Origin: Candidatus Woesearchaeota archaeon
Lineage (GTDB): Archaea > Nanobdellota > Nanobdellia > Woesearchaeales > UBA10216
DNA length: 64,000 bases
Reading direction: 5' to 3'
NCBI GenBank assembly: GCA_016192905.1
Contig: JACPTG010000004.1
Span: 69,745 to 133,744, forward strand
Part shown: positions 49,177 through 64,000 of the stretch, one piece after another
Position numbering within the stretch: position 1 is the first letter of the stretch
Layout of the letters: each line of letters begins with the position of its first letter
Translations under genes and position numbers: made by a program
Notes under the pieces: generated by a model
Database searches by the model: none
What the model was told of the DNA's origin: nothing
The model's input: the letters and a program-made list of their open reading frames with translations, nothing else

Positions 49177-52100
49177 ATGGGCAAAAGAGGCCAGATATCC
49201 ACCTTTTTAATAGCCGGGCTACTGGCCCTTTTCATCCTTGGAGGAGCAGTCTTCTATGCCAGAAGCACAAACCCTGGGCCAATTACCACAAGCTCAAGCG
49301 CAGGACTGGATTCAGCACTGAACAGCTATGTCCAGAGCTGCATGGACCAGCAGGTAAAGCAGGGCATAATCCAGTTCGGGCTTGGCCCTGCATCAGCCTC
49401 CCAGATACAATACTACATGGACAACCACCTCAAGCCATGCATTGACTTGTCCATCTTCGAAAGGCAGGGAGTGAAGGTGCAGGCAGGAACTCCAAAAGCA
49501 AACGTGGAAATAACAGACAGGGCAGTCACTGCAAGAGCCAACTACCCGATAACACTGATTGCAGAGGACAGGATTCTGGAATTTGAAATATTTGACTATG
49601 CGCTGCCAAGGGTAACGCCGCTTGGCGCAGCAAGGCTAAACACGCCAGCAGGAAGAGTCGTGGCAGAGGCTGATGTTGTAAAAGAGTGGACAAACGGCGG
49701 AGCGACCCTGAAGATAAAGCAGGGAACAGACCTGAAGGGAGAAGGGGAGCTGAAGCTGGAGGACAGAAATGCAGACAGCGGAAACAAGAATGAAGTTGTA
49801 GTCGGCAACATAATCTATTCAATCAAAGGCATAGAATTTGACAAGCCGGCAGAGCTGACCATATCGTATGTGGCTGCGGACATCCCAAAAGGCTACAATG
49901 AGGATTTCCTCGCAATAGCGCGATACGATAAGGAAAGGGACGTATGGGAGTCTGTGGAGAAGAGCACCACTGACAAATTGGTCATTGTTGTAACAGGAAC
50001 TGAGGTGACAGGTGCTGCAGCAGCACCCCCACCTTCGGGTGATATTGCCTCCATAATAATCGGTTCAGGTGCAACAACCGGAAGCGTAACAGGAGAAATA
50101 ACGCAGGCAGGAGACTACGCAATAGTCCTGATGTGCAAGCCCACAAGCCAGGTTCCACAAATAGAATACACAGACTGGCTGTACAGGGAGCAGGTATACA
50201 GCACAGACCGCACGCTGATAGGAAGGGTGGGGTCGGACTGGCAGGTCATAGGCGCTCAGCCTGCACAAGAGCAACAGGCTGCGGCAACTCCTGGCTCTTC
50301 TGATGAAACAGCTGGCGACACAGGGCCTACGGGAAGCGTAATCCAATCACCACCAGCCGACCTGCCAGGGTTAGGTCCTGATTACGGACAACCAGCCCAG
50401 CCAGCAAACCAGCCAACCGGAGCCATAGCGGCGCTGCCATTTGGCGTGATAAGGGAAAGGCCGCACAGGCACGAAAACTTGGTGTGGAGCGGCGGAAGCG
50501 GAGATGCAGACAAAGCCGCACGCAAGCAAACAGGAACGCCCAATGGAAAGCCAAGCATAGGAGACTGGGACGAGGATGACAAGCTTGAGAACGAAGCCGC
50601 ATGCCCGACATGCACCAAAAACCAGGGGCAGTGCAAGCCCAAATGCAAAGCCCTGGCAGTGGAAAAATACAAGGGGGAAGTCTGGGTTGTTGAGGGGCCT
50701 GAGCAGTACAAGCGCATGGCAAATGACGGAATCAAGGATGGAACCACTCCTGAATGCGACTCAGAAGACTGTGACTGCACAGATGACGGGCAGGGCAACA
50801 GGCACTGTGAAAGATGCCCGAAGTCGTGCGTACCAGAAAAGCTTGCCCTCGCAACACCAAACAACTACGGCTATAACAGCGTCGCTGATGTCGGAGGAAA
50901 AGGAGAGTATGAGTACAAGCTGAGGCCTGAAGGAAACAGCTGCGTGAACGTCAAGGATACGCTCAAGATAGACCTAAGGAGCCCGCCAGAAGGGGCATGC
51001 GATGACGAGTGCAAAGGCAAGCTGAACAGCAAGGACGTAAATGTGGACTACAAACCGATACCAGACTCTGACTTAAAGGCGCCCTCAAACAAGCTTGAAA
51101 TTGAAGTGATAAACACCAAGCAGGCAGCATCATATGCAAGAGGATACTTTGAGCTGATAACAGGCACAGGAAACTATCCGAGATGCGCAATCAAGACAGA
51201 GCTGAAAGAAAACTGCCTCTGCGGGACAACGAACGTCAACATACTGGAAGACCACGAAGACACAGACAAGGAAGATTACGGAGAATGGGAGATAAAGGTA
51301 AAGGAGAAAAAATTCTGCTGCGAGGACGGGACTGTTGTGGATGACATTTCAAAGTGCCAGCAGACAGCGTGCCCGACAGAAGCCAACGACACATCGCTTG
51401 CAGCAGCAAACCAAGGGTGCATGTGCGGAAGCCAATACTACGACAACAACCGGGACGGGCCAGGATACTGCTGCTCAACACAGACATGCGTGGGAACAAA
51501 ATGCACGCCGGGCCAGGGACTGGCCACAGGGACAGCAGGAAAGGAAGACCTTGAAATGCATGAATACAAGATGGTGTACAAGAACGGCAAATACTCAATG
51601 TACATGGACACAGAGCTGATTGGAACCTCTGACTCGCAGACAAGGCCAAAAGGAATCTCCATAGGCAACCCGCTTGAGAATGTCGGCGCAGAAGGGACGT
51701 GGACTTCGGTTAAGGTCGAGTCAATCGCAGTTACAGACTCAGCTGGAAAAGAGGTGTTCAAGGAAGACTTCACCGCAGCCCAGCTTGACCCGGCAAAGTG
51801 GGACTCAAAGCCAAGAAACGGCCTAGTGGCTGTAACAGGCGGAGCACTGGAACTGAAGATGCCAAGCCAACAGACATACTCGGCAAGCTTCCCATACGTC
51901 TCAACCAAAGGAGCCGTATTCCCTGAGACCGGGGACTTTACGCTAACCTTCAAAATGCAGTACACATATGTAACAGGCTACGGCGTTTACTTCTATGTTG
52001 GGGACCCTGCAAAAACTGACGGGGTGATGAGCGTAGGCCAGGACAACAGCTGGCCACAGGACAGCGGCAAGTATTACCTCAGAGTATGGCTGGTTGACGA

Positions 52101-53586
52101 CCTGATATACAAGTGCGGGGGAACAGGAGGATGCGGGGGAGAGACATGCAGCCCTGTTGAAACACCCGGCGGCGGAGGCCCTGCAACCCCAGCAAACTGC
52201 GGCAAGCCAAACAAATTTGGAGTGCACACCATGCTCCAGGAATACCCTGTCAGCGAATTCGGAGCGCAGCTTGACAAGGCAAAAGAGCTTGCGGGCGACT
52301 GCGGCATGGTCAAAAACCTTGTTGACGGAGTAGGATATGGGGTTGACATCACAAAATGGTCCACTTTCATAAAGGAAGTCAACAGAAGGAAGATGATACC
52401 AGTGATAAGGCTGCAGGGCAAGCACCAGGGAGACTCCTGGCAGAAGCCAGACCCTGCAAACAACTACGCGGGCATCGCGGCAAAGTACGCAGAGACAGTG
52501 GCGCAGCTTGAGGCAGCATCAGAAATGAAAGTAAGCCATGTAGAGATATGGAACGAGCCAAACCTCGGCGGCGAATGGGGAGGTGCTGCAAATCCTGAAG
52601 AATACGCAGCCTTCCTGCTGGCAGCAGCAAAGGCAATCAGGCAGGAAGACATGAAAGACGGAAAGAGGGATACAAACATCATAAGCGCCGGGCTGGCTGT
52701 GGACGCGCCAACAGGAAACGGCAACATCGCTCCAAATGAATTCATCGAGAGGATGCTCAACGCAAAGCCAGAGCTGAAGGACTACATAGACATATGGGGC
52801 TCACACCCATACCCCCCTGCCCAGACAAAATACAGGGATGAAAGGGCGCAGATAGCGAACAAAGGCCTGAACGTGCCGGCACTCCTGACAGAAATATCAT
52901 GGAAACGGCATGGCAGCGCTCCGGTCACGGCGCAGCAGTTCAAGGACATATACAAGGCCTGGTACGAGGACACGAACACAGCAGGAGCGATAATATGGCT
53001 GCTGAAATCAAACTCATGGAGCGAGTTCAACATGCTGGACAGCTCAGGAAACGGAAATGAATACTACAACGCAATAAAGGAATACAGGCAGCAGGTGGCA
53101 CCGGCACAGGCAGGGCAGCAGACAGGAGGGCAAGGCGGCGGGCAGGCGGGCAGCCAGTTCCAGGCAACCATTACAGGGCCAAGCCAAGTGAGAAAAGCCG
53201 AAGGAGTCAGGTATACGGCCAAAATCTCTCCAGACGAAGGCAAGGCCATATGGGAAGTCAGCCTCCTGGCAAAAAACAACAATAACGCAAATCCCAAAGC
53301 TTGGGGATGCCCTGACGAACCCATAGGAGAGTACTGCCGCGTGTCCAAATTCATATCAGGCCAAGAACGGCGGTCAACCACCATCCCACTGGAATGGTCC
53401 GGCAACACCATGTCAACAACGCAGCCAGGAGACTACACAATGATTATAGAAATGGAAGAGGCTGATGCCAGCAGGCAAAATGCGGTCAAGTGCTCAGGCA
53501 AACAGCCGCTGCCAGCAGGCTTTGTAAGGTGCAACCACAATGCGCCCCAGATGAAGGACAGCCTGCCGCTGAAAATAACAGCCTGA
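49177..53586 (+). CDS. Large surface protein with pilin-like N-terminus, LamG-like region and glycoside hydrolase-like TIM barrel
   Basis: MGKRGQISTFLIAGLLALFILGGAVFY; VEIWNEPNLGGEWGG and ALLTEISW (clan GH-A-like catalytic Glu motifs). Confidence 0.83.
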   Translation: MGKRGQISTFLIAGLLALFILGGAVFYARSTNPGPITTSSSAGLDSALNSYVQSCMDQQVKQGIIQFGLGPASASQIQYYMDNHLKPCIDLSIFERQGVKVQAGTPKANVEITDRAVTARANYPITLIAEDRILEFEIFDYALPRVTPLGAARLNTPAGRVVAEADVVKEWTNGGATLKIKQGTDLKGEGELKLEDRNADSGNKNEVVVGNIIYSIKGIEFDKPAELTISYVAADIPKGYNEDFLAIARYDKERDVWESVEKSTTDKLVIVVTGTEVTGAAAAPPPSGDIASIIIGSGATTGSVTGEITQAGDYAIVLMCKPTSQVPQIEYTDWLYREQVYSTDRTLIGRVGSDWQVIGAQPAQEQQAAATPGSSDETAGDTGPTGSVIQSPPADLPGLGPDYGQPAQPANQPTGAIAALPFGVIRERPHRHENLVWSGGSGDADKAARKQTGTPNGKPSIGDWDEDDKLENEAACPTCTKNQGQCKPKCKALAVEKYKGEVWVVEGPEQYKRMANDGIKDGTTPECDSEDCDCTDDGQGNRHCERCPKSCVPEKLALATPNNYGYNSVADVGGKGEYEYKLRPEGNSCVNVKDTLKIDLRSPPEGACDDECKGKLNSKDVNVDYKPIPDSDLKAPSNKLEIEVINTKQAASYARGYFELITGTGNYPRCAIKTELKENCLCGTTNVNILEDHEDTDKEDYGEWEIKVKEKKFCCEDGTVVDDISKCQQTACPTEANDTSLAAANQGCMCGSQYYDNNRDGPGYCCSTQTCVGTKCTPGQGLATGTAGKEDLEMHEYKMVYKNGKYSMYMDTELIGTSDSQTRPKGISIGNPLENVGAEGTWTSVKVESIAVTDSAGKEVFKEDFTAAQLDPAKWDSKPRNGLVAVTGGALELKMPSQQTYSASFPYVSTKGAVFPETGDFTLTFKMQYTYVTGYGVYFYVGDPAKTDGVMSVGQDNSWPQDSGKYYLRVWLVDDLIYKCGGTGGCGGETCSPVETPGGGGPATPANCGKPNKFGVHTMLQEYPVSEFGAQLDKAKELAGDCGMVKNLVDGVGYGVDITKWSTFIKEVNRRKMIPVIRLQGKHQGDSWQKPDPANNYAGIAAKYAETVAQLEAASEMKVSHVEIWNEPNLGGEWGGAANPEEYAAFLLAAAKAIRQEDMKDGKRDTNIISAGLAVDAPTGNGNIAPNEFIERMLNAKPELKDYIDIWGSHPYPPAQTKYRDERAQIANKGLNVPALLTEISWKRHGSAPVTAQQFKDIYKAWYEDTNTAGAIIWLLKSNSWSEFNMLDSSGNGNEYYNAIKEYRQQVAPAQAGQQTGGQGGGQAGSQFQATITGPSQVRKAEGVRYTAKISPDEGKAIWEVSLLAKNNNNANPKAWGCPDEPIGEYCRVSKFISGQERRSTTIPLEWSGNTMSTTQPGDYTMIIEMEEADASRQNAVKCSGKQPLPAGFVRCNHNAPQMKDSLPLKITA

Positions 53587-57137: not shown

Positions 57138-57440
57138 TTATAAAAGTTCCAGGCTATCCATCAGCCTCCTCACGTTTTTACTGAGCTCAATGCCCTTATC
57201 AGTCAGCTTGACCTTTTTAATCCTGTCCTGCTTTTCAAATGTCAATAGCCCGGCTCCATTCATCTTTTCCAGCAGGCCTGTCGCGTGCGAGTAAGTGCAA
57301 TGCGCTTTCACAGCCAGCTTGCTGCAATAGTCATCACCTTTTTCACTGCCAATAGTCAGAAGTATTTCTACAGCTTTCCTTCTAACAAAAATGTTGCGCA
57401 ATTGCCCCTTTTGTGATAATGCAATCCTTGTTTTCGCCAT
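57138..57440 (-). CDS. MarR-like winged-helix protein
   Basis: VRRKAVEILLTIGSEKGDDYCSKLAVKAHCTYSHATGLLEKMNGAGLLTFEKQDRIKKVKLTDKG. Confidence 0.75.
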   Translation of the reverse strand: MAKTRIALSQKGQLRNIFVRRKAVEILLTIGSEKGDDYCSKLAVKAHCTYSHATGLLEKMNGAGLLTFEKQDRIKKVKLTDKGIELSKNVRRLMDSLELL

Positions 57441-57648
57441 TTTTTCCCTCTTCGTGCAACGGTTTGCTTACTATCAAGTCCTGCATAACCCCATACTTCA
57501 GCATGGTCTCAGCGCTTGCCAAGGCCAACCTTAGGTTTGCAGCCAGCAGGGGAACGCCTGCGACTGTAACAACCAAGTCAGCGTTTAAAATAACGCCTTT
57601 CTGCAATGCCCTGTCAAGCAGTTCAGCCACCCCTATGTCGGTTTTCAT
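57382..57648 (-). CDS. GvpA/J/M/S-family gas vesicle protein
   Basis: GVAELLDRALQKGVILNADLVVTVAGVPLLAANLRLALASAETMLKYG. Confidence 0.88.
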   Translation of the reverse strand: MKTDIGVAELLDRALQKGVILNADLVVTVAGVPLLAANLRLALASAETMLKYGVMQDLIVSKPLHEEGKNGENKDCIITKGAIAQHFC

Positions 57649-58436
57649 TTCACAAGCTGACCCTGTTCAACAAACGAATAGGGGGGGAAAGGCCCTGCAA
57701 CGCTGTAAGAGAAACCTTTCTCAGCACACATCCCCAGGCATTCAGTGACGAGCCCGGCCTCTTCCCCGTCTACAAGCACGGATACGTTCAACAGCAGGTC
57801 TTCTTCCCTGTTGATGGCCAGCCTAGACTTGTTCACCACTATGTGGCGTGTCACACCCTCCAAACGCCCATAAAAATAGTCAGTGTAGTGGTTTATCTTA
57901 GCCAGCAGCAGTTCGGCAGCCCTTATTTCCAGCTTTTTTCCCAGCAAATAAGCCAATCCTGCGCCCCTTCGCCTAATATCACTGCGAATTGCGTCAAGCT
58001 CATCATCTTTCCCAGATTCACTTTCCAGCCGCTTCCTTTGGCAATAAATCCTTATTCCGTATTCCCTTTTCCCTTTAACAATTCCCCACGTTTTTTCCAA
58101 CAGCTCCCTGTTCTCCTTCATCCATCCCCTTAAATTTTCGCTTGCGCTTCTTCCGCCTTTACCGACAATCAGAGTGCCAAACTTCAGGGGGATCACAGTT
58201 CCAAAGTCGCCCATCGCCTTGCATAACACCTCATTATGCAATGTCACCTGCCTTTTGACTTCTGCAGCGCCTCTTGGCAAATGCAGATTCTCCTCCAGCT
58301 TATGATTATGAACCAGCGCAGCCAGAGCACCTTCTGTGAGTGCAAAAACAGAATTGCCATCTATACCTTCCATATGCCAATCTGCGGCACTTACGTTTAC
58401 CAGTAGGCCATACAGGTACAAGGTTTCAGCAGGCAT
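57645..58436 (-). CDS. GvpF/GvpL-family protein (copy 2)
   Basis: ETLYLYGLLVN N-terminus; GTVIPLKFGTLI; C-terminal SVAGPFPPYSFVE. Confidence 0.9.
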   Translation of the reverse strand: MPAETLYLYGLLVNVSAADWHMEGIDGNSVFALTEGALAALVHNHKLEENLHLPRGAAEVKRQVTLHNEVLCKAMGDFGTVIPLKFGTLIVGKGGRSASENLRGWMKENRELLEKTWGIVKGKREYGIRIYCQRKRLESESGKDDELDAIRSDIRRRGAGLAYLLGKKLEIRAAELLLAKINHYTDYFYGRLEGVTRHIVVNKSRLAINREEDLLLNVSVLVDGEEAGLVTECLGMCAEKGFSYSVAGPFPPYSFVEQGQLVK

Positions 58437-58728
58437 TTTCGTGTTGCAAAACCAATTTGTCAAGAGCGCTGCCAACAAGCCCGTCAAGCTCAGCCCTTAC
58501 CTTTTCCGAAGCCTGCTCCAAGCCGTGCTCTTTTTTAATCCTTTCAATTGTTTCGTCAAGATTCAAAAAAGCAATCCCCAGCCTCTCCACCTCTTCCTCG
58601 CTCAGGGAGCCAGATTCCATCCTGTGGAGCGCCTGTTTTTGCAGGACATCTATTATTATCTCAGCCAACCCCACAACAAGGCCTAAAAGACCCTCTTTCA
58701 GGTCATCGCTTTCTATCTGGACGCTCAT
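58426..58728 (-). CDS. gvpK: Gas vesicle protein GvpK
   Basis: DLKEGLLGLVVGLAEIIIDVLQKQALHRMESGSLSEEEVERLGIAFLNLDETIERIKKEHGL. Confidence 0.93.
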   Translation of the reverse strand: MSVQIESDDLKEGLLGLVVGLAEIIIDVLQKQALHRMESGSLSEEEVERLGIAFLNLDETIERIKKEHGLEQASEKVRAELDGLVGSALDKLVLQHENAC

Positions 58729-59195
58729 TTTGCAAGCTCCAGCACCAAAAAGCCATTCTCATTCCTGATACTCGCAAGTTTTGAGAACCTGCCAGGCAAT
58801 TCAATCATTTTCTTCCACTTCTCCGCCTGCAGCTTCAGGGTTTTGCCTTTCAATTCTATGTGAACCTCTTTCTGCGGCACTTTTGCGGTTAAAAGGAGCT
58901 TATCCCCCCGCATTTCAAACTTGCAGTCATCGCCTATAAACTCCCCAGCCCCTTTTGTTGCTTCCTCAATTATGGGCCTTGCCGAAATCCTTACTTCAAA
59001 AGCCGGCTCCTTTTTCTCTCCTTTTCTCAGGTTATCCCCAATTTGCCTGTCAACTTCCCCAAACCTTTTCTTAAAAGGCCCTGTTTTGGAAAGCCCCCTG
59101 ACAAGTCCGCCCAAAAAAGGGACTGCCTCCAAAAAACTTTTGGAATGGGGAGCTTTTTCCTCTTCCTTGGCATCCAGCCCTTTTCTTCGGCTCAC
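58725..59195 (-). CDS. gvpH: GvpH-like (HSP20-type) protein
   Basis: C-terminal alpha-crystallin-like strands (LLLTAKVPQKEVHIELKGKTLKLQ); position next to gvpK. Confidence 0.7.
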   Translation of the reverse strand: MSRRKGLDAKEEEKAPHSKSFLEAVPFLGGLVRGLSKTGPFKKRFGEVDRQIGDNLRKGEKKEPAFEVRISARPIIEEATKGAGEFIGDDCKFEMRGDKLLLTAKVPQKEVHIELKGKTLKLQAEKWKKMIELPGRFSKLASIRNENGFLVLELAK

Positions 59196-59662
59196 TTTCC
59201 CACCTTCTTTTTACGCTTTTCCTTTCCCACTTTTGTTTTGGGCTTTTCCTTTCTCACCTTGGTTTTACGCTTTTCCTGCTTTCCAGCTTCACGCAACTTC
59301 CACTTGTTGCCGTAAATCCTTTCCGATGGCTTCACTATCGAGTACTTAGGCCTTAATGGGACTGTGCTGTGCGTTGCTTCAAACCTGTGAACCGATTTCG
59401 GCCTGAATCCCACTTCTAATTTACTTGGGAAGCTGCTTGGATTAAGGTTAGGCAGGTTTCCCTCTTTTTTGGCTTTCATCAATGCCTTATTTTTTTGCAC
59501 TTTGGCTTTGTACCTTTCCCTCTGGCTCAGCAAGTTCTGCCTTGCAGCATCACGCCACTGTTCCATCTTCTGAATTGTTCTCAGAAGAAAGTCCCTTCTC
59601 CTTCTTCCAACCATATGGCTTCTGCCAACCGGAGCCCTGCCAATCGAATCCACCATTGTCAT
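59192..59662 (-). CDS. Lys/Arg-rich protein with C-terminal KTKV-KEK repeats (GvpI-like by position only)
   Basis: Very basic; C-terminus KRKTKVRKEKPKTKVGKEKRKKKVGK. Confidence 0.6.
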   Translation of the reverse strand: MTMVDSIGRAPVGRSHMVGRRRRDFLLRTIQKMEQWRDAARQNLLSQRERYKAKVQKNKALMKAKKEGNLPNLNPSSFPSKLEVGFRPKSVHRFEATHSTVPLRPKYSIVKPSERIYGNKWKLREAGKQEKRKTKVRKEKPKTKVGKEKRKKKVGK

Positions 59663-59673
59663 AACCTCTCTTT

Positions 59674-60021
59674 TCAGATTTTGATAATAATCACATTATC
59701 AACTTTTTCCAGCTCAACTTCTTTCCCTTTCCATTCGCCAATTCCTGCCCTGACATTGTAGGCTTTTTCCTTGCTGACATATTTTCTTATGAACGATTGC
59801 AGCTCCCTCTGCCTTTTCTCGCTGCGCTTTGTTATGCTGTGGGCCAAGGTGCCATCAGCCTTTAGCCTGCAGTAAAAGTCCTGCTCAACCAGCCTGCCGC
59901 CCTCTTCCTGGGCAGCCACTGTTATAATTTCTGTGTCGCTAAAACCCAGGCCCTGCGGCTTATGCACTTTCCAGACATCGCTTACATGCAACAGTCTGGC
60001 TTTCTTTATTACGGCTTTCAT
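59674..60021 (-). CDS. gvp-operon conserved hypothetical protein
   Basis: ORF embedded in the operon with a small overlap to its upstream neighbour; family not recognised. Confidence 0.65.
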   Translation of the reverse strand: MKAVIKKARLLHVSDVWKVHKPQGLGFSDTEIITVAAQEEGGRLVEQDFYCRLKADGTLAHSITKRSEKRQRELQSFIRKYVSKEKAYNVRAGIGEWKGKEVELEKVDNVIIIKI

Positions 60022-60022
60022 A

Positions 60023-60376
60023 CTACCCATCAATTTCTTTTTTACTGCTTTGCGCGTAGTCTAAATACTTCCATCCGCAGCCAAGGCAGCCTTTTTCGGT
60101 TTTGGCATAGAGCCCGCTGCGGCACTCAGGGCAGATACTCTTCCCTGATTCCAAAATTTTCCAGGCCGGCGCAGTCAAATCCGTGCCTGAAGGGAACGCC
60201 AATCCGAATTTTGCCGCGGTTTCGAAGCTGGACAGGGCTGCTCTTAACTTAATCCCTATCAGTTCTGTTCCAGCCACGCTGATTGATATGTCGGCATTGA
60301 TGATGAGCCCCTTATCAAGCAGCCTGTCAATAAGCTCTGTCAGTCCTGTTGACTCATAGCTCATTGAGCGTCCCAT
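60023..60376 (-). CDS. GvpA/J/M-family protein with C-terminal zinc ribbon
   Basis: GLTELIDRLLDKGLIINADISISVAGTELIGIKLRAALSSFETAAKFG followed by CPECRSGLYAKTEKGCLGCGW. Confidence 0.85.
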   Translation of the reverse strand: MGRSMSYESTGLTELIDRLLDKGLIINADISISVAGTELIGIKLRAALSSFETAAKFGLAFPSGTDLTAPAWKILESGKSICPECRSGLYAKTEKGCLGCGWKYLDYAQSSKKEIDG

Positions 60377-60391
60377 TTCCAGCCCCCTTTA

Positions 60392-60685
60392 TTACCTGTC
60401 ATAAGCGTTTCCCTCCCTAATGCTGACCTTTGACAGCATTTCTTCAATTTCCTGCGCTATTCTGAGTTGTCGCATAAGCGACTCATGCTGTTCTTTGTAA
60501 GCTGCTTCATCAAGCTCTCCCAGCTCCAACAACAGCCGGTTCTCTTTTATCCGGTTGTTTATCTTTTTGATATCGTACTTCTCCCTTAAGCCGTAATCGC
60601 GAATCAGCTCCAGGAGCCATATCATGTCAAACGGCTGAAGCGAAAACCCCAAAGCCCTTAAAATGACGTCATCCAGTATGAACAT
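60392..60685 (-). CDS. gvpG: Gas vesicle protein GvpG
   Basis: Small acidic helical protein: IRDYGLREKYDIKKINNRIKENRLLLELGELDEAAYKEQHESLMRQLRIAQEI; overlaps the gvpF/L gene. Confidence 0.8.
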   Translation of the reverse strand: MFILDDVILRALGFSLQPFDMIWLLELIRDYGLREKYDIKKINNRIKENRLLLELGELDEAAYKEQHESLMRQLRIAQEIEEMLSKVSIREGNAYDR

Positions 60686-61331
60686 TCTCCCCCCTGATGC
60701 GTATGTTGATGAATGAGTAAGGCGGCCAAGGCCCTGTATAAATGAACCTGAGGCCTTTGTGCCGCTTCTCAAGCATAGATATCGCATTTGAAAATTCTGA
60801 AAGCCTTACCTTCTCCACCAGGAATGAATAGTTCAACAGCAGCCTATCGCTGAAGCTCTCCCCCCTTGAAGCCTTGACGCACAGCCTGCCCAGGCAGTTA
60901 AGAATTTCAGCCTCAGCGCCGCTGTAATCTGCGCCTGCGCCGGGCATTACAACCTTAACCCCAAGCTCGATTTTGCCCTTAACAAGCCCCAAACACGCAT
61001 TAACAGAATCGTAAGCCCTTTCCAATACGGCCTTTAATGTCTCCTCATCCCTGAATACGTTCCCAAAGGACATCGGCACGACAGTGGTTTTCTCAGACAT
61101 CTTTTTAAGTATTTCAGCATGCTGCATTGCTTCGGTTTCGTTTACCAAAGGGTTTAACCTGGGATAGGAGCTTACAACAGCAGCAATGTCCATATAAGGA
61201 ACAATCGTGAAAGGCTCTCCATCCAGCCCTGCAAACCCGAATTCCACAGTTTTCGCATTATTCTTAAGCGGAACTATTCCGTAAACGTACAAATAGCTGC
61301 AATTTTGCGCATCAGCCCCAAATTCCTGCAT
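60669..61331 (-). CDS. GvpF/GvpL-family protein (copy 1)
   Basis: YLYVYGIVPLK N-terminus; VVPMSFGNVFRDEETLKAVLERAYD; RFIYTGPWPPYSFINI C-terminus. Confidence 0.92.
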   Translation of the reverse strand: MQEFGADAQNCSYLYVYGIVPLKNNAKTVEFGFAGLDGEPFTIVPYMDIAAVVSSYPRLNPLVNETEAMQHAEILKKMSEKTTVVPMSFGNVFRDEETLKAVLERAYDSVNACLGLVKGKIELGVKVVMPGAGADYSGAEAEILNCLGRLCVKASRGESFSDRLLLNYSFLVEKVRLSEFSNAISMLEKRHKGLRFIYTGPWPPYSFINIRIRGENVHTG

Positions 61332-61345
61332 TTTCCATTACACCT

Positions 61346-62086
61346 TCAGTTCCCTGTCAAAAGCCGCATTATAAGCGAGTTCGCTTCTGCCTGCTTTTTT
61401 AGCACAACCCAGGCCTGCTCCTTTTCACTTACTCTGTAGATCTTGCTTTTCAGTTTGTACTCGCACACCAGCAAACCATCCTTTTCCAATTCATGGAGCT
61501 TCGGATAAAGCTGGCCCGGGGAAACAAAAACCCTGAATTTCAGATAAAGCGCCTTTATCAGATCAGAGCCACACATTGGATTTGTCATCAGCATTGCAAG
61601 GACAACGCTGTTCAGCTCCCTTTTCACTGCGCCTTCAACAAGTTCAGCGTTAATGTTTTCCAGTTCGTTTTCAGCCTTCCTGCTGGAAAGCATCCTGATA
61701 TTATTAACTGAAAGCACCATTTTGTCATGAATGGCGACAAGTTCCCTTAAAATGGCAGGGTCTATCCCGTCAATGTTGTAAATGCAAACAGCCTGCGGGA
61801 GCATCTCCCAATGCTGCTCCCACTTCGTAAAATCGCTTGAGAGGGAAGAGTTATCAACCACAATATTCCTATCTTTCCAGTTGTTCGGCTCCTCTGGCGT
61901 CCTGACGTCAACAAATAACCCCTTTTTTTCGAAAAACTCATTCCATTTGGAAACGTTGCTGGTGACAAGCACATTGGCGTCAGCCCCGTTTTCGAGCAGG
62001 TGAAACATCAATGTTTCCTCAAAGTTCTGGCTGTTGCACAGGTGCAGGCAATGCTTTGCCAGTCCAAACACAAGGTTGGCGTTCAT
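61346..62086 (-). CDS. Sensor-like (MEDS/DUF835-like) N-terminus fused to PadR-like winged helix
   Basis: ANVLVTSNVSKWNEFFEKKGL...VLSVNNIRMLSSRKAENELEN then SDLIKALYLKFRVFVSPGQLYPKLHELEKDGLL. Confidence 0.65.
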   Translation of the reverse strand: MNANLVFGLAKHCLHLCNSQNFEETLMFHLLENGADANVLVTSNVSKWNEFFEKKGLFVDVRTPEEPNNWKDRNIVVDNSSLSSDFTKWEQHWEMLPQAVCIYNIDGIDPAILRELVAIHDKMVLSVNNIRMLSSRKAENELENINAELVEGAVKRELNSVVLAMLMTNPMCGSDLIKALYLKFRVFVSPGQLYPKLHELEKDGLLVCEYKLKSKIYRVSEKEQAWVVLKKQAEANSLIMRLLTGN

Positions 62087-62364
62087 CGCTGCACATCGCC
62101 CCTTATTATTTTCCTAATCTGCTTAAAGCTCAGTATGTTGCCTGCCGAGTCAAGGTTCAGCTCAAACACGCTTAAAAGGTCGAACTTGTCCGGAATAGCC
62201 TTTCTTTCCAGCACCTCAACCTCCATTCTCCAGCCCTTCTCAGTCTTTTCCAGCAAAGAGACAGACTCCGGCTGCTTATTAAGCAACTCCTGAGCATTTG
62301 AAAAAGCCTTGTTGCGAATTTCCAAAAGACCCATAACAACAACCCCCGCTTTTTTCAGCTTCAT
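62083..62364 (-). CDS. gvpO: Gas vesicle protein GvpO
   Basis: SVSLLEKTEKGWRMEVEVLERKAIPDKFDLLSVFELNLDSAGNILSFKQIRKIIRGD. Confidence 0.92.
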   Translation of the reverse strand: MKLKKAGVVVMGLLEIRNKAFSNAQELLNKQPESVSLLEKTEKGWRMEVEVLERKAIPDKFDLLSVFELNLDSAGNILSFKQIRKIIRGDVQR

Positions 62365-63383
62365 ATGCTGTCCAAAATCTTTTGTTTGCTCAAAAAATCC
62401 TCCTGGCTTTTCGTTTTCGAGACGATGATATCCCCCAACACAGCATTTACGGAGTCCTTGTCGAATTTTTTAAATCCCTTTAGCATGCGGGCAACCATCA
62501 CGCAAGCCCTTGTGCCAATCTTCTCAGCATTCGGCAGCCTTTCCCTAACCCTTCTAACCACGTCAACAATTGCAGCAGCATCCTTCATGTCCAGCTTAGC
62601 GTGCGTCATAACAATCTTAACTTCTGTTTCCCTGTCGTAATAGTCCATGTAAATCCCCACCATCCTGTCCAGCAATGCATCCTGCGCCCTGTGAATTCCA
62701 GCATACTCAACAGGGTTTGAGGTGAAGATTGCCCTGAAGGCCGGATGAACCTTTACATACCTTTCCTCACCAAACTGCGTGGGCAATTCAAGAACCCCTT
62801 CACTAAAAACAGAAAGCAGCACATTATTTGCCGAAGGCTTTGCCCTGCTGAACTCGTTGTAAATAAGCGTGTAGCCGTATTTGCAGGCAAGAGTTAAAGG
62901 ATTATCAGCCCAGTCTGCCTTCAAGATGTCCTTATCCTTGAAAACGTTATGGATATACTTGTCCCTTATAGTGTTAACCTCAACCTCAGAATAACCGCCA
63001 ATCAGGTCAGTTGTTGTTATGCTCTCATCCCCGTTTATCCAAACAACAGGCCTTCCAAGCTCCTTGGCAACTGTCAACGAAATGGCAGTCTTTCCACAAC
63101 CTGTAGGCCCTATTATGTGAACAGGCTGTTTTAGAGAAAGCCAGTTCTTAACCCTCTCCTTCAAGGCCTTTACAGGCTCTGTCTCAACCCAGTACTCAAC
63201 TTCCGGAACAAGGTATTCTGCCTCTACCTTCTCCCTTGTCAATTCCTTGTCCATTACGGCCAGCGAAGACTTCATGTTGCTCAGGGCCTTTTCCTTATTT
63301 TCCAATTCAGCCCTTTTTTCCGAAAACGTCTGATGCATGCGTTTCCCAAGAACTTCTCTCCTATGAACAGCCCTGTAAGCCAT
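62361..63383 (-). CDS. gvpN: Gas vesicle AAA ATPase GvpN
   Basis: PVHIIGPTGCGKTAISLTVA Walker A; TLIYNEFSRAKPSANNVLLSVFSEGVLELP; IFTSNPVEYAGIHRAQDALLDRM. Confidence 0.95.
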   Translation of the reverse strand: MAYRAVHRREVLGKRMHQTFSEKRAELENKEKALSNMKSSLAVMDKELTREKVEAEYLVPEVEYWVETEPVKALKERVKNWLSLKQPVHIIGPTGCGKTAISLTVAKELGRPVVWINGDESITTTDLIGGYSEVEVNTIRDKYIHNVFKDKDILKADWADNPLTLACKYGYTLIYNEFSRAKPSANNVLLSVFSEGVLELPTQFGEERYVKVHPAFRAIFTSNPVEYAGIHRAQDALLDRMVGIYMDYYDRETEVKIVMTHAKLDMKDAAAIVDVVRRVRERLPNAEKIGTRACVMVARMLKGFKKFDKDSVNAVLGDIIVSKTKSQEDFLSKQKILDSI

Positions 63384-63550
63384 ATCTTATGACACCCCCT
63401 TGCACAATTCTTCTGAAACCAGACATTTAACTAAGTTCTGTTTCGGCTTTTGTTTCAGAATCCGAATATGCACGGATACCAATCCCATTAACTTACCACA
63501 ATGTAATCTCAGAATACGAAACAAGCTTTATAAAGGTCCACAGATGATTA

Positions 63551-64000
63551 GTGATAGAAAAGGGGGGGGCGATTACTCGGGCTAAAATTTCTTATGGCAT
63601 AGGCGGCAATGTCCTGCTGGACAATCTGGATTATGGCAAGAATTTGCTCATTCTTCACAGTAGCACGCAGAGGCATGAGCAGCTCTACCGCCGTTTTTTG
63701 CAGCAATCTTCAGAGGGGGGGGGGCGTTAATTTACTTGTGTCTGAGAAAAACAAAAATTGCATGACGAATTTCGACGCCAGAAACATTTCCTTCACGGCG
63801 CTAAACATAGAATCCGTCAATGAAATCAAGAAGGAGGTTTACAAATGCATTGCCGGAGTTGCGAAGGAAGGCAAGAAGTGCCTCCTTATATGCGACTGGG
63901 CAGGGGCGGACATAGATTACGCCACGAGTGAATTCTTTCTCCAGTTTCTGGAGCACCTGAGAAGGAAATCAAAGGCATCATATCCTGAGGCATGGAAAAG
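63551..64000 (+). pseudogene. Sensor-like protein, frame interrupted at a G10 tract (63715-63724); runs off the window
   Basis: Frame 1 ISYGIGGNVLLDNLDYGKNLLILHSSTQRHEQLYRRFLQQSSEGG stops after G10; shifted frame continues GVNLLVSEKNKNCMTNFDARNISFTALNIESVNEIKKEVYKC... Confidence 0.65.

Follow-up and report, generated by a model that had tools for sequence, protein, structure and literature searches.

A gas vesicle gene cluster in a woesearchaeal genome

The DNA analysed here, referred to as the window, is a stretch of 64,000 nucleotides (C4:69745-133744, forward strand) from a 1.43-Mb genome (G000) that is 95% complete, consists of 6 contigs and contains a 16S gene. Near one end lies a cluster of genes for gas vesicle proteins (Gvp), which continues past base 64000 into the stretch L004; positions there are given in extended coordinates, that is, window numbering carried on beyond the edge. 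The host is a member of the Woesearchaeota within the DPANN, a superphylum with very small, mostly host-attached cells, as judged from its family kinship to UBA10216 and from its GvpN matches. UBA10216 (G377) falls in the host's own family, giving the same matches at the same contig places as family member G376. A preliminary description of this DNA had proposed a near-complete gvp operon on the chromosome of an archaeon, conceivably a DPANN-like one, and both proposals held.

Thirteen genes on the minus strand, all of them open and for the most part overlapping, make up the accessory operon at 57138-63383 (Table 1), just as had been read earlier from the open reading frames (ORFs). They were assigned by Pfam and NCBIfam profile searches, followed by comparison with the Gvp proteins of Halobacterium and Natronorubrum. 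The AAA+ ATPase GvpN, GvpO, GvpG, GvpK, two GvpL/F proteins, two members of the GvpA superfamily (PF00741) and a PadR protein scored above the cutoffs, whereas the gvpH-like gene gave only a weak HSP20-like Pfam signal; it aligned with the gene at the same position in DPANN and Methanosarcina clusters. Against haloarchaeal references, the two F/L proteins separated into GvpF (the first) and GvpL (the second), and both GvpA-superfamily members of the window proved to be minor forms (J and M), as suspected. The zinc ribbon of GvpJ is also found in Methanosarcina and is missing from the two haloarchaeal GvpJ proteins compared. The gene previously labelled a basic ORF encodes GvpI, which has the stretch HSTVP..PKYS.V...ER.YG in common with Halobacterium GvpI and scored 33 bits against Natronorubrum. 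The genes A, F, G, J, K, L, M and O form the set that is sufficient in haloarchaea, and all of its members are present here, gvpA lying outside the window. The cluster has the chief features by which a gas vesicle cluster can be recognised from sequence, GvpC being uncertain.

The operon also encodes a conserved protein of 115 amino acids (aa), which was found in each DPANN gvp cluster of sufficient length, in two copies in Aenigmatarchaeota, and had no match in Methanosarcina or haloarchaeal gvp clusters. Its predicted structure (predicted local distance difference test score of 90) is OB-like at best. The top match in a fold search, the single-stranded DNA-binding protein PrgE (E 0.04), was too weak to be used for assigning a function.

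Table 1 Genes and G tracts of the gas vesicle locus, with tract-bearing reverse transcriptase loci of other genomes (window numbering unless stated otherwise)
Feature	Position	Strand	Evidence or remark
small winged-helix protein	57138..57440	-	weak helix-turn-helix (HTH) matches; UBA10216 is the sole genome with a conserved copy
gvpM-like minor GvpA-superfamily protein	57382..57648	-	PF00741; GvpM best NCBIfam model
gvpL	57645..58439	-	PF06386, E 4.9e-39; GvpL best match
gvpK	58426..58728	-	PF05121, E 1.1e-18
gvpH-like, HSP20-type	58725..59195	-	10 bits against Halobacterium GvpH (weak)
gvpI	59192..59662	-	profile, 54 bits against Halobacterium GvpI
115-aa conserved protein	59674..60021	-	119 aa if an earlier start is taken
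gvpJ with C-terminal zinc ribbon	60023..60376	-	PF00741; GvpJ best NCBIfam model
gvpG	60392..60697	-	PF05120 above cutoff
gvpF	60669..61331	-	PF06386, E 2.6e-43; GvpF best Halobacterium match
KaiC-like/PadR regulator 1 (GvpE-like), 246 aa	61346..62086	-	PadR above Pfam cutoff
gvpO	62083..62364	-	PF05800, E 7.5e-22
gvpN, AAA+ ATPase, 340 aa	62361..63383	-	TIGR02640, 336 bits (cutoff 267)
KaiC-like/PadR regulator 2	63544..64000, on to ~64508 past the window	+	PadR domain, E 5.4e-10
poly-G tract 1 (G8)	63562..63569	+	six codons past the ATG of regulator 2
poly-G tract 2 (G10)	63715..63724	+	inside regulator 2; sole G9+ run in the genome
gvpA, 74 aa	C4:134591-134815 = L004:8592-8816 = extended 64847-65071	+	starts 847 bp beyond the window end
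GvpC-like helical protein	extended 65165-65590		after gvpA; open frame
winged-helix gene	extended 65596-66105		after the GvpC-like gene
RVT_1 loci with a G10+ run	L134, L135, L137, L139, L142, L150, L151, L159, L160, L161		tract at ~1501 (L137: 1188)

The shell protein gene gvpA lies just beyond the window

The earlier statement that no classical GvpA was in view is correct for the window, which holds J and M forms only, and fails for the contig. A PF00741 search of the whole genome returned three matches, the third of which, on the plus strand 877 bp beyond the edge of the window, belongs to a classical GvpA. This protein contains DVWARVNLVGIEIL, is identical to Halobacterium GvpA at 58 of 67 positions, and exceeds both NCBIfam GvpA cutoffs (128 against 112 bits and 125 against 100 bits). 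As the gene starts just past the window end, its apparent absence was an edge effect. gvpA is transcribed divergently from the gvpN operon, a placement repeated in related clusters, and its upstream region has a Shine-Dalgarno-like AGGAGGTGGAGTTAG and a TATA-like element, both shared with UBA10216. Compared with this sister genus, gvpA differs at 33 codons synonymously and at one codon by a conservative nonsynonymous change, indicating that it is under purifying selection; third codon positions account for 32 of the 37 differences in gvpA and for 150 of the 250 in gvpN.

The position and helicity of the protein encoded after gvpA fit GvpC, and a profile match to Halobacterium GvpC reached 46 bits, with an hhalign probability of only 16%. 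Further along on this side, G000 and UBA10216 alike have a gene for a 146-aa membrane protein (region C4:135797-137779, past the window).

Two KaiC-like/PadR regulators, one of them interrupted by poly-G tracts

The cluster has two regulator genes, one in the accessory operon with an intact frame and one between gvpN and gvpA; the latter, although it begins inside the window, is missing from the preliminary description. Both products seem to combine a KaiC/FlaH-like N-terminal domain with a PadR domain; the KaiC/FlaH-like call is only moderate because the overall predicted template modelling score of the model was 0.51, and a Walker A motif was not found in this domain. A family profile of these regulators matched Halobacterium GvpE with 45 bits, in the C-terminal PadR-type domain. 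In Halobacterium, GvpE raises gvpA promoter activity 70-100-fold and GvpD reduces GvpE (PMC4390858); a tblastn search for Halobacterium GvpD, confined to the window and L004, gave no match. The GvpE-like protein of the Aenigmatarchaeota genome G470 also matches Pfam MEDS (E 3.5e-5, below cutoff).

The frame of regulator 2 is broken at two poly-G tracts, and the pieces flanking them match one continuous protein in relatives. Read from the ATG, a full-length product of ~320 aa results only from certain combinations of tract lengths, and the assembled combination is off; partial products could still be made from a GTG start and an internal ATG. Besides these G8 and G10 tracts, no G/C run of 8 or more occurs in 75 kb of contig C4, and every such run of the first locus set (~320 kb including controls) lies in or at the start of a KaiC-PadR regulator. 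Apart from a 12-bp array in C20, no other notable simple repeat was seen in the regulators.

G000 was the discovery case for the tracts, and the remaining genomes were found later. The gvp regulators of OS129, UBA10216 and NC1918 carry a G10 at the 5' end, a C15 and a G10 that is in frame ('on'), respectively, against genome-wide totals of G9+ runs of one in G000, three in OS129 (one at a contig end), two in UBA10216, two in NC1918 and none in G023 and C20. The single G10+ run of G729, a genome of 28% GC, is a G14 inside the gvp cluster, where it joins a histidine kinase to a response regulator (L129:8990-10674). G10+ runs occur in just 66 of the 378 genomes of the class, and three were seen in its gvp clusters, where at most 0.06 were expected in seven clusters of 12 kb (P ~4e-5 or less); the expectation was based on the most generous background, with 242 overlapping matches counted as separate runs over ~333 Mb (sum of the 378 genomes). 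The locus has two marks of a contingency locus, namely a long G/C tract whose length sets the reading frame and a scarcity of such tracts elsewhere in the genome that makes its place here unlikely to be due to chance.

As a control, the first G10+ run was inspected in 29 other genomes of the class. Ten of these runs were in reverse transcriptase genes (RVT_1), six of them directly before a conserved GMPLGNLTSQ motif, and the gene was often split into two frames. The tract-bearing reverse transcriptase looks phase-variable or frameshifted, and the motif recalls diversity-generating retroelements. Some of the tract-bearing RVT_1 proteins have a C-terminal HTH_40. At five other loci (L147, L152, L154, L155 and L157), G/C runs of 10 or more fall within long ORFs of surface- or secretion-like type, a setting also found among the contingency loci of bacteria. 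The distribution of long G runs in these archaea is thus non-random and compatible with a role as contingency tracts.

The cluster is part of an island at a defined chromosomal site

Flanked by aspS and an AMP-CoA ligase gene, an island of 11.7 kb holds the gvp cluster together with GIDE-like, LemA-like and major facilitator superfamily genes. The gvp-free genome G023 of the same family (97% complete) has rdgB-corA-aspS, ~540 bp, and then the AMP-CoA ligase, TrmB, PheS and PheT, and the genes at this empty site are 55-86% identical to those flanking the island in G000. Aspartyl-tRNA synthetase is encoded in 18 of 19 family genomes and is native to the family. Among 43 equal segments, none has a more atypical tetranucleotide profile than the island, and its GC content is 0.466 against 0.498. 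Because an empty site with native flanks coincides with atypical composition, we regard the island as a horizontal gain at a defined chromosomal site; the GIDE-like and LemA-like genes may have arrived with it, since the empty site has neither. No tRNA and no Rfam match was found in the window, which accordingly shows no sign of a tRNA-integrated element. Near the island, the window encodes a secreted or anchored protein of 1469 aa (49177-53586) with cysteine-rich stretches and probably a glycoside-hydrolase-like part.

Gas vesicle genes are rare in the DPANN genomes sampled

Of 19 genomes of the host's family, 2 encode a PF00741 protein. The count was 3 among 371 genomes sampled from the phylum, 7 among 378 sampled from the class (~2%) and 2 among 156 Aenigmatarchaeota; GvpN was detected in 2 of 353 genomes of the order. 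The closest GvpN matches in GTDB genomes were UBA10216 (76%) and three metagenome-assembled genomes (MAGs) of Nanoarchaeota, followed by Methanosarcina and one Aenigmatarchaeota MAG. The gvpN phylogeny that the preliminary description had called for placed the sequences from Woesearchaeota and Nanoarchaeota in one clade (100/99), separate from Methanosarcina, haloarchaea and bacteria; Aenigmatarchaeota were unplaced in this tree and several deep forks are open. OS129 (G064), which belongs to a different family of the class, has a near-identical gene order that extends to the divergent GvpA side, and G470 has the same divergent layout with the 115-aa gene in duplicate. A viral origin was considered by scanning IMG/VR for GvpN, which yielded three distant AAA+ proteins (22-23% identity) and no viral gvp cluster. 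Searches of the open-access literature brought up no account of gas vesicle genes in Woese-, Nano- or Aenigmarchaeota and none of homopolymer-switched or phase-variable gas vesicles of this type; both absences are weak evidence.

Several clusters have genes of their own. A Get3/ArsA-type ATPase is encoded between regulator 2 and gvpA in C20 (L062:2303-3202) and a MinD/ParA-like ATPase after gvpM in G470 (L065:5455-6312), while Halobacterium has a ParA gene after gvpO; these ATPases are possible vesicle partitioning factors. The 1.8-Mb genome G772 has gvp genes on three contigs (L131, L132 and L133), apparently forming several clusters, and a further, divergent GvpJ-like gene is present in each.

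Interpretation of the locus

We consider it likely that the locus is a complete, horizontally acquired gas vesicle cluster under purifying selection, probably subject to slipped-strand phase variation. GvpA would build the shell, which GvpF, G, J, K, L, M and O and the ATPase GvpN would nucleate and grow; the GvpC-like helical protein may stiffen it, and H and I would tune vesicle size. The GvpE-like regulators 1, in the accessory operon, and 2, beside gvpA, would set transcription and probably drive it. The role of activator is assumed by analogy with GvpE; were it a repressor instead, the sign would be reversed and the switch retained. Replication slippage would alter the poly-G length and thereby switch full-length regulator 2 stochastically between on and off. 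Some cells of a clone would then float and others would not, a mixture that could serve as a natural bet-hedge.

Gene content and order, the open frames of the operon genes and gvpA, conservation, the insertion site, the tracts and the frame break are seen directly in the sequence; from these we infer vesicle formation, control of gvpA by the regulators, switching and a benefit from buoyancy. Several observations weigh against this interpretation. Assemblies are prone to errors in homopolymer length, and the off state of regulator 2 may therefore be a miscall; regulator 1 with its intact frame could suffice alone. In OS129 and for tract 1 of G000, translation that begins beyond the tract could circumvent it, the C15 of UBA10216 adjoins Ns, and the tract of G729 at the kinase/response-regulator junction is outside any PadR gene. 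Four gvp-positive genomes of the class (G723, G772, G786 and G789) lack any G10+ run, as does the gvp cluster of G470. Buoyancy would also bring small cells little gain: at a density difference of 80 kg/m3, the computed drift is ~0.9 mm/day for a radius of 0.25 um (diffusion over a day, 0.4 mm) and 34 mm/day for 1.5 um. The drift of small cells is on the order of diffusion, and a benefit from buoyancy would be confined to cells that are larger, aggregated or attached to a host.

The strongest competitor, to which we give a minor though real share of credence, accepts the gas vesicle genes as genuine and takes the tracts to be neutral or errors of sequencing or assembly, with conventional regulation. 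Homopolymer miscalls are common, two-colour sequencing yields false G runs, some runs are at contig ends (G379:C20), and the gvp-positive genomes without a run fit this explanation. Errors, however, alter the length of a run and hardly create one, and the internal runs are flanked by homologous coding sequence and recur in the same type of regulator in several independent assemblies; the G14 in a genome of low GC content and the enrichment above background point the same way. A decaying acquisition that no longer makes vesicles, with the broken regulator as a pseudogene, would explain the out-of-frame regulator 2 and the lack of gvp genes in most relatives. We consider decay very unlikely, given that open frames are kept by all 13 operon genes as well as by gvpA and the GvpC-like gene, that differences from the sister genus in gvpA and gvpN are mostly at third positions, and that the breaks in regulator 2 are confined to the poly-G tracts.

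Two explanations that would deny the cluster its place in this genome, or its function, can be set aside almost entirely. The atypical tetranucleotide profile and GC content of the island could reflect a chimeric join or contamination with DNA of Methanosarcina, a haloarchaeon or some other source, an outcome that the preliminary description had named as fatal to its own reading. The flanks are nevertheless native and adjacent in the gvp-less relative, a cluster of 76% identity occurs in UBA10216 of the same family, and the Woese/Nanoarchaeota GvpN proteins form their own clade, so that we give a chimera hardly any credence. An accessory cluster that lacks the shell protein, or that makes a repurposed shell from J and M forms, was suggested by the content of the window itself and is already refuted by the classical GvpA next door, at the same place as in related clusters; its chance of being correct is negligible.

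Going beyond this locus, we lean slightly towards the view that DPANN archaea, for the most part symbionts, make true gas vesicles switched by poly-G slippage in KaiC-like/PadR regulators as a form of bet-hedging, and that the switch arose repeatedly across clusters. If true, gas vesicles would reach a superphylum in which free flotation should pay little, which bears on whether the cells are larger, aggregated or planktonic, or whether the vesicles serve another use, and homopolymer phase variation would be a mode of control in uncultured archaea. The locus also provides a compact gvp set from an archaeon, in which the 115-aa and GvpC-like proteins are conserved and as yet uncharacterised. 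GvpD, E, O and I have been stated to be haloarchaea-specific, methanogens being without gvpDE, C and I (PMC9501494); the presence in DPANN of GvpI, a haloarchaeal-type component found in G000, and of GvpE-like proteins breaks this statement for GvpE and GvpI.

Comparison with known systems

Like the p-vac cluster of Halobacterium salinarum, the cluster has two opposed transcription units and comprises parts A, E, F, G, I, J, K, L, M, N and O, a weak H and an uncertain C. It differs from the gvpACNO order of p-vac in that gvpN and gvpO belong to the accessory operon, opposed to gvpA and the GvpC-like gene, and in that the remaining genes follow the order F-G-J-115aa-I-H-K-L-M on a chromosome. 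Two KaiC-PadR regulators, the GvpJ zinc ribbon and the 115-aa protein are additional to p-vac, and GvpD was without a tblastn match in the window and L004. Clusters of Methanosarcina (M. spelaei and Methanosarcina sp. ERenArc_MAG2) have in common with it the N-O-(PadR)-F-G-J-H-K-L-M core, the zinc ribbon of GvpJ and a small helical protein after gvpA, with GvpN 50-57% identical to that of G000. In contrast, their gvpA is present in several copies, neither the 115-aa protein nor this GvpI profile has a match in them, and they contain no long poly-G tract.

The regulators resemble haloarchaeal GvpE in the PadR-type C-terminal domain match and in the gene adjoining gvpF, and depart from it by the KaiC/FlaH-like N-terminal domain without Walker A, by being present in two copies and by the poly-G tracts in one of these. 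In having a long G/C tract in a coding region that sets the frame and is rare elsewhere in the genome, the locus is like the poly-G contingency loci of Neisseria and Campylobacter. Unlike those of the bacterial loci, the present tracts are archaeal and would control the regulator of an organelle.

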